Assembly (NCBI GenBank): GCA_011051615.1
Contig: DRKU01000107.1
Span: forward strand, 1-33,196
Length of the DNA stretch: 33,196 bases
Origin: Gammaproteobacteria bacterium
GTDB taxonomy: Bacteria > Pseudomonadota > Gammaproteobacteria > CAMYNG01
Direction: 5' to 3'
Every line of letters begins with the position of its first letter. Positions within the stretch are counted from its first letter, which is position 1. Made by a program: the position numbers and the translations under genes. Below, in pieces: positions 32,011 through 33,196 of this stretch. Under the pieces are notes generated by a model, which ran no database searches, had not been told where the DNA came from, and was given only the letters and a program-made list of their open reading frames with translations.

Positions 32011-32375
32011 GGGGGCGACATGGCTTCGACGTGGATCGCGAAACCCGAGGGGCATGCCGAGGTGCGGATTACCTCGTAAAACCATCTGCAAATCATATAG
32101 TTGCCAACGACGACAACTACGCACTAGCTGCTTAAAAACCAGCCTGGTGCCCTCTGGCCGGCGGCGTGCCTGTGCGCACCGGATCCCAGGGGTCATCCCA
32201 CACAGGATCGCGCCAAAGCTCGTCCGGGGCAGCGGCGTTAAAACCTTACCGGACTCGCCAGTGGTTTTCCCCGCCCGCCGGGTAACTGCTGGTCAAATCA
32301 ATAGGCGTGGATAAGCATGTAGATCCGAAGGCAGAGGATTTGCGGACGCGGGTTCGATTCCCGCCGCCTCCACCA
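32011..32375 (+). ncRNA. ssrA: Transfer-messenger RNA (tmRNA, SsrA)
   Basis: tmRNA rescues stalled ribosomes with SmpB and tags the nascent protein for proteolysis. The 5' end GGGGGCGACATGGCTTCGAC is the standard tmRNA start. Its acceptor arm GGGGGCG pairs with CGCCTCC before the encoded ACCA at 32372-32375. The tag reading frame at 32103-32135 encodes ANDDNYALAA then TAA, one residue different from E. coli ANDENYALAA. GC-rich pseudoknot segments follow, and the T arm is GCGGGTTCGATTCCCGC. Length (365 nt) is normal. A displaced copy of the last 22 nt lies downstream. Confidence 0.98.
32354..32375 (+). repeat. Attachment-site-like direct repeat, copy 1 (in ssrA)
   Basis: These are the last 22 nt of tmRNA, from the T loop to CCA. 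The identical 22 bases recur at 32508-32529. A T-loop-to-3'-end block is the typical core for tyrosine-recombinase integration into tRNA and tmRNA genes. Confidence 0.8.
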
Positions 32376-32383
32376 GACAAACA

Positions 32384-32410
32384 AGGGTTGCCGTCAGGCA
32401 GCCCTTTTTT
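32384..32410 (+). terminator. ssrA intrinsic terminator
   Basis: A 9-bp stem (384-392 with 397-405, one G-T pair) with a GTCA loop runs into six T, starting 8 nt after the tmRNA 3' end. Confidence 0.9.
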
Positions 32411-32465
32411 GTTTGTGGTGGTGGTGCGGATGAGAATCCGCGTGGTGCGGGTTGCCGTAGCGAAG

Positions 32466-32507
32466 CGGAGGTACACTTGATGAACCTCCGACAGGAGGTT
32501 CTAAGTG
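32466..32507. repeat. Mutually exclusive hairpins before the second att-like copy
   Basis: ACCTCC (32484-32489) can pair either with GGAGGT at 32467-32472 or with GGAGGT at 32494-32499. The second option extends to a longer stem through CACTT (32474-32478) and AAGTG (32503-32507). The structure abuts the second att-like copy directly. It may be recombinase arm or core-flanking DNA, or an RNA structure. Confidence 0.55.
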
Positions 32508-32529
32508 TCGATTCCCGCCGCCTCCACCA
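32508..32529 (+). repeat. Attachment-site-like direct repeat, copy 2
   Basis: This is a perfect copy of the terminal 22 nt of ssrA, 154 bp downstream of the first. It lacks the 5' half of the T stem, so it is not part of a functional tRNA-like domain. It is best explained as the distal site of a past integration or excision. Confidence 0.8.
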
Positions 32530-32587
32530 ATGATTGACTGCCAGATACCTCGGGGCACGAGATCGATGACCCGACACATGGGGGAGA

Positions 32588-32607
32588 ACGTGTCGCGATA
32601 GACACGT
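32588..32607. repeat. Small perfect hairpin ACGTGTC/GACACGT
   Basis: A 7-bp stem (588-594 with 601-607) with a 6-nt loop lies 8 bp before the left terminal repeat of the MITE-like element. No T run follows. Confidence 0.6.
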
Positions 32608-32615
32608 GACACTCC

Positions 32616-32820
32616 TAAATACGTGTTCCAAATTCCACTACAGTTTACAGACATCAGGCTCTCACCGGGGCGGCGTTTACGGACCGTCAGCCGCAGGGAT
32701 GCGGCTGTCGAGCGTACAGGGATGTATTTACCGCGTGTCCGTAAACGCCGCCCCGGTGAGAGACAGGCAAATGATGTAATCCGTTGTTTCATGTGATCGG
32801 GGATTTGGAACACGTATTTA
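32616..32820. mobile_element. MITE-like element with 18-bp terminal inverted repeats
   Basis: TAAATACGTGTTCCAAAT at 32616-32633 is perfectly inverted at 32803-32820, bounding 205 bp with no coding capacity. Inside is a second perfect 26-bp inverted repeat. No obvious target-site duplication was seen (CTCC on the left, ACAA on the right). It inserts between the ssrA att-like region and thpR, ending 14 bp before the thpR ATG. A non-autonomous transposon is the simplest reading; a regulatory palindrome is the alternative. Confidence 0.7.
32659..32762. repeat. 26-bp palindrome with two AGGGAT-loop hairpins
   Basis: Arms 32659-32684 and 32737-32762 are perfectly complementary over 26 bp. The 52-nt interior forms a 7-bp hairpin (688-694 with 701-707) with loop AGGGAT and a 3-bp hairpin (715-717 with 724-726) with the same loop. 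The second reads GTACAGGGATGT, a full match to the CsrA SELEX consensus RUACARGGAUGU. CCGCAGGGATG and GCGTGTCC are shared with the element at 6655-6740. Confidence 0.85.
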
Positions 32821-32834
32821 ACAAGGAAAGGGAA

Positions 32835-33196
32835 ATGCGCTGCTTTTTCGCCATTTATCCGGACATCCGGCTACTCGTACAGCTACGCGATCTTCGTCAC
32901 CAGTTGCGTAAACAGTTGCCCGACGACGAAATACGCTGGATACAGGAAGATGCCCTGCACCTGACGCTGGCCTTTTGCGCGGAAATCGAAGACGAGCAGG
33001 CCGAACGTGTATGGAACATATTGCAACCACGACTTGCCCGGCAGTCACCCTTTGATATCCGCCTAACCGAGATTGGCCCTTTCCCCGCACGACGACCGCT
33101 TGTCGTGGCACTGGGACTGGAAAGACCCCCGGCCCTGCAAACGCTGGACTTGACCATCCAGGCGGCGCTGGAAGAAGTCGGCCTGCCACGCAGCAC
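32835..33196 (+). CDS. thpR: RNA 2',3'-cyclic phosphodiesterase ThpR (2'-5' RNA ligase), 5' part
   Basis: ThpR is a two-histidine phosphoesterase that acts on 2',3'-cyclic RNA ends and ligates tRNA halves in vitro. The first 120 residues are present: MRCFFAIYPDIRLLVQLRDLRHQL, then RWIQEDALHLTLAFCAEI with the first HxTx motif (HLTL), then FDIRLTEIGPFPARRPLVVALGLERPPALQTLDLTIQAALEEVGLP. The second HxTx motif should follow just past the window edge. AGGAAAGGG lies 3-11 nt before the ATG. The upstream MITE-like element ends so close to the start that it supplies the 5' untranslated region. Confidence 0.9.
   Translation, partial: MRCFFAIYPDIRLLVQLRDLRHQLRKQLPDDEIRWIQEDALHLTLAFCAEIEDEQAERVWNILQPRLARQSPFDIRLTEIGPFPARRPLVVALGLERPPALQTLDLTIQAALEEVGLPRS

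Follow-up and report, generated by a model that had tools for sequence, protein, structure and literature searches.

It is moderately likely that positions 32376–32529 of the window (the whole stretch of 33,196 nucleotides analysed, an entire contig of a draft genome of 2.68 Mb in 245 contigs, here G000) are a miniature mobile element: a gene-free, non-autonomous unit integrated site-specifically at the 3' end of the tmRNA gene ssrA and mobilised in trans. At the level of sequence, the comparisons behind this reading show a precise integration point, conserved modules, a patchy presence and a divergence incompatible with vertical descent, together with terminators on the far side of the unit in other hosts and a tandem arrangement with an island in the genome G240.

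The integration target, ssrA, was placed at 32011–32375 on the plus strand by ARAGORN and Rfam (RF00023), with an intact 3' end and the tag peptide ANDDNYALAA. It is a standard one-piece tmRNA, whose acceptor does not precede the coding part as in the permuted form (in the Rfam scan the permuted model RF04321 gave no more than a below-threshold match), and it is uninterrupted, whereas the T-loop of the sister genome G001 is split as by a group I intron. A repeat search of the window located TCGATTCCCGCCGCCTCCACCA as two exact direct copies on the plus strand, at 32354–32375 (copy 1, the ssrA end itself, attL-like) and 32508–32529 (copy 2, the displaced end, attR-like), with an identity of 100% and a start-to-start spacing of 154. 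This confirms the original prediction that the terminal 22 nt of ssrA recur 154 bp downstream and that the second copy comes without the rest of the T arm, the 5' half of the T-stem being indeed missing. A chance repeat was rejected, as the 20-nt core, with at most 3 mismatches allowed, has two sites in the window, and no third, against a chance expectation of 0.02; the equal arrangement in the assemblies of other genomes makes an artefact of assembly improbable.

The unit (32376–32529, plus strand), homologues of which lie directly 3' of ssrA elsewhere, is made up of a terminator, the ssrA end in an imperfect inverted form, hairpins and copy 2. The 132-bp spacer between the two copies is non-coding, and Rfam gave no family besides tmRNA at gathering thresholds in this region. 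An intrinsic terminator that would serve ssrA (AAGGGTTGCC GTCA GGCAGCCC T6) occupies 32383–32415 on the plus strand and is kept in all full-unit hosts, with one compensatory pair change in the comparison of alignment and structure. When the spacer was aligned locally with ssrA in reverse complement, an inverted and imperfect copy of the gene's 3' end, covering acceptor and T-arm, emerged at about 32416–32443 on the minus strand. Shuffled sequences aligned equally well in 17 of 1000 cases for the window, which is individually modest, and in 0 of 1000 and 2 of 1000 for the homologous units of Candidatus Tenderia and G245. In a long stem the inverted copy is the 5' strand and copy 2 its partner, and the ssrA ends follow one another in the order direct, inverted, direct; when compared with terminal inverted repeats, the left edge of the unit is the terminator and the partner of the inverted copy is copy 2. 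Within the long stem, folding and alignment place two hairpins on the plus strand (32450–32507), at about 32450–32472 and 32474–32507 (CACTTGATGAACCTCC GACA GGAGGTTCTAAGTG), both beyond the terminator. Across 6 related sequences 96% of the cells were paired and 4 pairs had changed on both sides, among them an A-U to G-C change in G245 at a pair between the inverted copy and copy 2. The compensatory changes and the pairing lend support, not strong, to the folding of the unit.

A search of 369 gammaproteobacterial genomes with positions 32376–32612 found the spacer and copy 2 directly 3' of ssrA in G240 and G273 (86–88% identity) and in G245 (81%). Longer or decayed variants turned up in G136, G337 and G128 (Thiohalophilus thiocyanatoxydans DSM 16326). 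Of the 212 genomes that this query matched, about 30 have at least two matches, and few of these were read. A scan of 84,980 species with an internal motif added the unit of Candidatus Tenderia, which is also the one seen in G383 and is counted once. Full units are therefore known from the window and four other gammaproteobacterial genomes (G240, G273, G245 and Tenderia), which belong to three further families, four families overall. The distance from ssrA end to displaced end is nearly constant, at 154 in the window, 151 in G240, 154 in G273, 160 in G245 and 156 in Tenderia. In the motif scan all four gammaproteobacterial matches were linked to ssrA; the other 13 (12 from other phyla and one alphaproteobacterial, with Gluconacetobacter, Bradyrhizobium and Caulobacterales among the 13) had no flanking unit sequence on reading.

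With a covariance model of the unit core there was one match in its own genome (124 bits), two in G240 and a single one in each of G273, G245 and Tenderia, all at known sites, so that full units are restricted to ssrA itself and, in G240, to the distal border of its ssrA island, while partial hairpins are dispersed in G337 and, weakly, in G187. With an E value of 1e-6 and strict filters the same model did not find the unit in 397 further Pseudomonadota genomes, and it was absent from the viral contigs and the phage and plasmid collections searched, which gave no relevant source match. By these searches the unit is rare. Several further candidates were set aside: a single viral motif match had no unit sequence around the motif, a tRNA-linked copy in G307 proved to be merely a similar terminator beside tRNA-Ser, and a pattern search of the 369 genomes for short spacings gave ssrA-located matches only in G044, G240, G273 and G383, the remaining matches listed looking, from their unannotated sequence, like chance GC-rich stretches.

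The terminators offer a record of the insertion. The one in the spacer is conserved along with the unit across families, and all the other full-unit hosts (G240, G273, G245 and Tenderia) have a second terminator, of the ordinary kind, after copy 2. In Tenderia this second terminator starts with ATATTAAGCCC and resembles those found directly after ssrA in unit-free members of its family, which start with ATACCAAGCC in G340 and ACACTAAGCC in G387. The presence of a second terminator beyond copy 2 therefore makes it most likely that the insertion split ssrA from its native terminator and substituted its own. The spacer had been described as 132 bp containing the native terminator and hairpins; the length and the hairpins stand, but the terminator is probably not native, since in other families it moves with the unit and a further one lies beyond copy 2. 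No displaced terminator could be recognised after copy 2 in the window, where it has probably decayed or been lost around a MITE. This MITE (32614–32820, neither strand assigned) is 207 bp long, with nested perfect inverted repeats and many copies in its own genome; it lies outside the unit, after 84 bp without recognisable features, and its 58-bp palindromic core is also found alone. It is followed by thpR, of the 2'-5' RNA ligase family (32835–33196, plus strand; Pfam LigT_PEase, 4e-13), which is cut by the contig end at 33196.

Larger elements are also found at this site. G031 contains an ordinary 14 kb ssrA island, in which 44 bp separate a tyrosine integrase gene from the displaced copy, and G314 a 2.65 kb island with the ssrA end at its borders. 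The order in G240 is ssrA, one unit, an island of about 8.8 kb with the type I restriction genes hsdM, hsdS and hsdR, and a second unit; no integrase was recognised in the island between the two units, and CAGCACCA, which precedes the left edge of the second one, may represent an ssrA end that has been damaged. G136 shows two displaced CCTCCACCA ends in succession, and a terminator comes after each. A non-coding stretch of about 200 bp following the ssrA end or copy 1 is common to G005, of the window's family, and G240, of another (L053 1–350 and L076 15160–15365, both minus strand), and may form the left border of a further ssrA island.

Such islands bring forward the rival that survives best, although it is unlikely: that the unit is the scar of a larger, integrase-bearing ssrA island of one family, in which an internal deletion left the two ends (the terminator on the left, the hairpins on the right) and the displaced 22-bp copy. 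Full islands bounded by the ssrA end do occur in the class, as in G031 and G314, and tandem ssrA islands with 20-bp repeats are known in Dehalococcoides (PMC3146451). Against this, the scar would need deletions ending at identical bases in several lineages, and no genome was seen with genes separating the terminator part from the hairpin part. The proposal of a scar or minimal island was accordingly close in its second half, and its reading as the remnant of a collapsed element is probably wrong, because five genomes from four families would not be left with the same stretch of about 150 bp by random collapse. Nor is the site empty, as had also been suggested; it is taken by a very small occupant. 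That an integration event took place at ssrA is borne out by the single-copy relatives (G001, G126, G384, G381 and others) and by the larger repeat-bounded islands of G031 and G314, the two kinds of genome that the original prediction had proposed to look for; copy 2 is not conserved in all relatives, and islands do lie between such copies.

Indications of transfer come from the comparison of the unit with its hosts. G240 and G273, of different families, share a unit that is 96.1% identical over 129 nt, against 78.3% for the body of ssrA (last 22 nt excluded) and 67.2% for the neighbouring smpB reading frame. The reverse is seen for G245 and Tenderia, of one genus, with 82.3% for the unit and 95.9% for ssrA. 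The Fisher tests of these contrasts (p = 7e-7 and p = 8e-6, respectively) assume independent sites, and their values serve as a guide only; the sample consists of five full-unit genomes, with short alignments and mostly draft assemblies. Presence among close relatives is patchy. The sister genome G001 has an ssrA 97% identical to that of the window and no unit; in the order of G240 the unit occurs in one of 11 genomes (two of the ten without it gave no ssrA match, and several of the loci were read); in the genus g206 G245 and G383 have units, and G384 and G381 have none. With a similarity that contradicts the relatedness of the hosts in both directions, and with its absence from close relatives, the unit behaves like something that moves and not like an inherited sequence.

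The same data bear on a second alternative, that of a conserved RNA module for tmRNA maturation or termination, kept by selection and inherited vertically with many losses. The strong structure described above, with its paired cells and compensatory changes, speaks for such a module, but vertical inheritance conflicts with both directions of the host comparison, most ssrA genes, those of congeners included, manage without the unit, and the hairpins sit beyond the terminator, which together make this explanation very improbable. Also very improbable is an origin from inserted REP-like hairpin repeats, or from a polymerase that switched template at the terminator hairpin and copied the ssrA end first inverted and then direct: the dispersal of the hairpin part in G337 and G187, the direct-inverted-direct order and an independent case in G044 fit it, but a local event cannot yield units 96% identical in hosts whose ssrA genes are 78% identical, and no full unit was seen away from ssrA other than the one that closes the G240 island. 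The G044 case (L149 8077–8226) is a short ssrA duplication with a spacing of 139 bp and a different unit, whose spacer holds an 18-nt near-exact inverted copy of the T-arm.

Under the favoured reading of a miniature mobile element, recombination would take place at the 22-bp ssrA end, as in larger ssrA islands; integration would rebuild ssrA and supply the unit's own terminator, and the old gene end with its old terminator would be left displaced on the far side. The recombinase acting at the 22-bp repeat would be supplied in trans and is most likely a tyrosine integrase like those of ssrA islands; no recombinase gene was found within or adjoining the unit, and no candidate enzyme was linked to it. 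A rather doubtful extension, drawn by analogy, is that the unit inserts as a folded single strand. Folded attC sites and the genome of the CTX phage are inserted in this way, and here the duplex of 32416–32443 with 32508–32529 could mimic a double-stranded ssrA end and be accepted by an ssrA-specific integrase. If this were true, a minimal mobile element would need only a folded mimic of its target and a spare terminator.

By analogy, the unit behaves like an ssrA island reduced to its attachment site, or like a CIME without cargo. Genomic islands integrated at ssrA include the enterobacterial elements of the CP4-57 type. Like these islands, the unit is inserted at the 3' end of ssrA, rebuilds the gene, leaves a displaced copy of about 20 bp, can occur in tandem and shows empty and occupied sites among relatives; unlike them, it measures about 150 bp, has no genes or integrase, and contains the target end in inverted form as well. 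Conserved terminator sequences at attachment sites were reportedly noted in the 2003 survey of ssrA elements by Williams. The vcr islands of Dehalococcoides are likewise integrated at ssrA (PMC3146451). With CIMEs and other non-autonomous derivatives of integrative elements, which have att sites but no integrase and are moved in trans or by accretion, the unit shares flanking att repeats, the absence of recombinase and transfer genes and, in G240, a position adjoining another island, but it has no cargo, and its near-constant size and sequence across families make it behave as a family of its own. MITEs are also short, non-coding and palindromic, and presumably moved by an enzyme encoded elsewhere; they are many and dispersed, whereas the unit has one fixed target, one or two copies per genome (one in its own) and full copies at ssrA loci only. 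An integron cassette with its attC offers a further parallel, being short, with an imperfect palindrome at the end and a folded strand that recreates a duplex, and several hosts of the unit carry an integron integrase. An attC site, and with it an integron version of the folded-strand idea, was rejected, as RYYYAAC and GTTRRRY are absent from both strands of the unit and no similarity was found near integron integrase genes. These integron-type genes were recognised in G240 by TIGR02249 and in Tenderia, G245 and G136 by sequence resemblance (L171, L169, L175, L176).

The same short piece of ssrA is the target of the group I introns already known in the tmRNA T-loop (PMC11915505), whereas the unit follows the gene. 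Group I-like introns split the T-loop after GGTTCGAT in G001 (L003 1849–2106), G336, G375 and G387 (other loci L105, L109 and L142), exon 2 being TCCCGCCGCCTCCACCA. Rfam did not flag the G001 insert, and the group I-like assignment follows from the boundaries and the likeness among the loci. A gene for a LAGLIDADG endonuclease was seen outside the intron, past exon 2 and the terminator that follows it (L142 674–1135, minus strand; L051 46–480, plus strand), whereas a 2025 tmRNA survey places such genes inside it. The gene is intact in G387 (Pfam 1.2e-8) and apparently frameshifted in G001, with suspected remnants in G336, G371 and G126.

In the literature searched, which left most subscription journals outside its scope, no published account of a gene-free ssrA unit was found. 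The present findings suggest that ssrA, a classic landing site of large islands, also hosts gene-free elements of about 150 bases, which annotation pipelines would skip as intergenic DNA. Tandem arrays could start from units of this kind, as in G240, where a restriction-modification island lies between two of them; they could also give passing cargo extra recombination sites and alter the terminator of an important gene. In a search for the enzyme that mobilises non-autonomous ssrA elements, the unit would further serve as a compact substrate.
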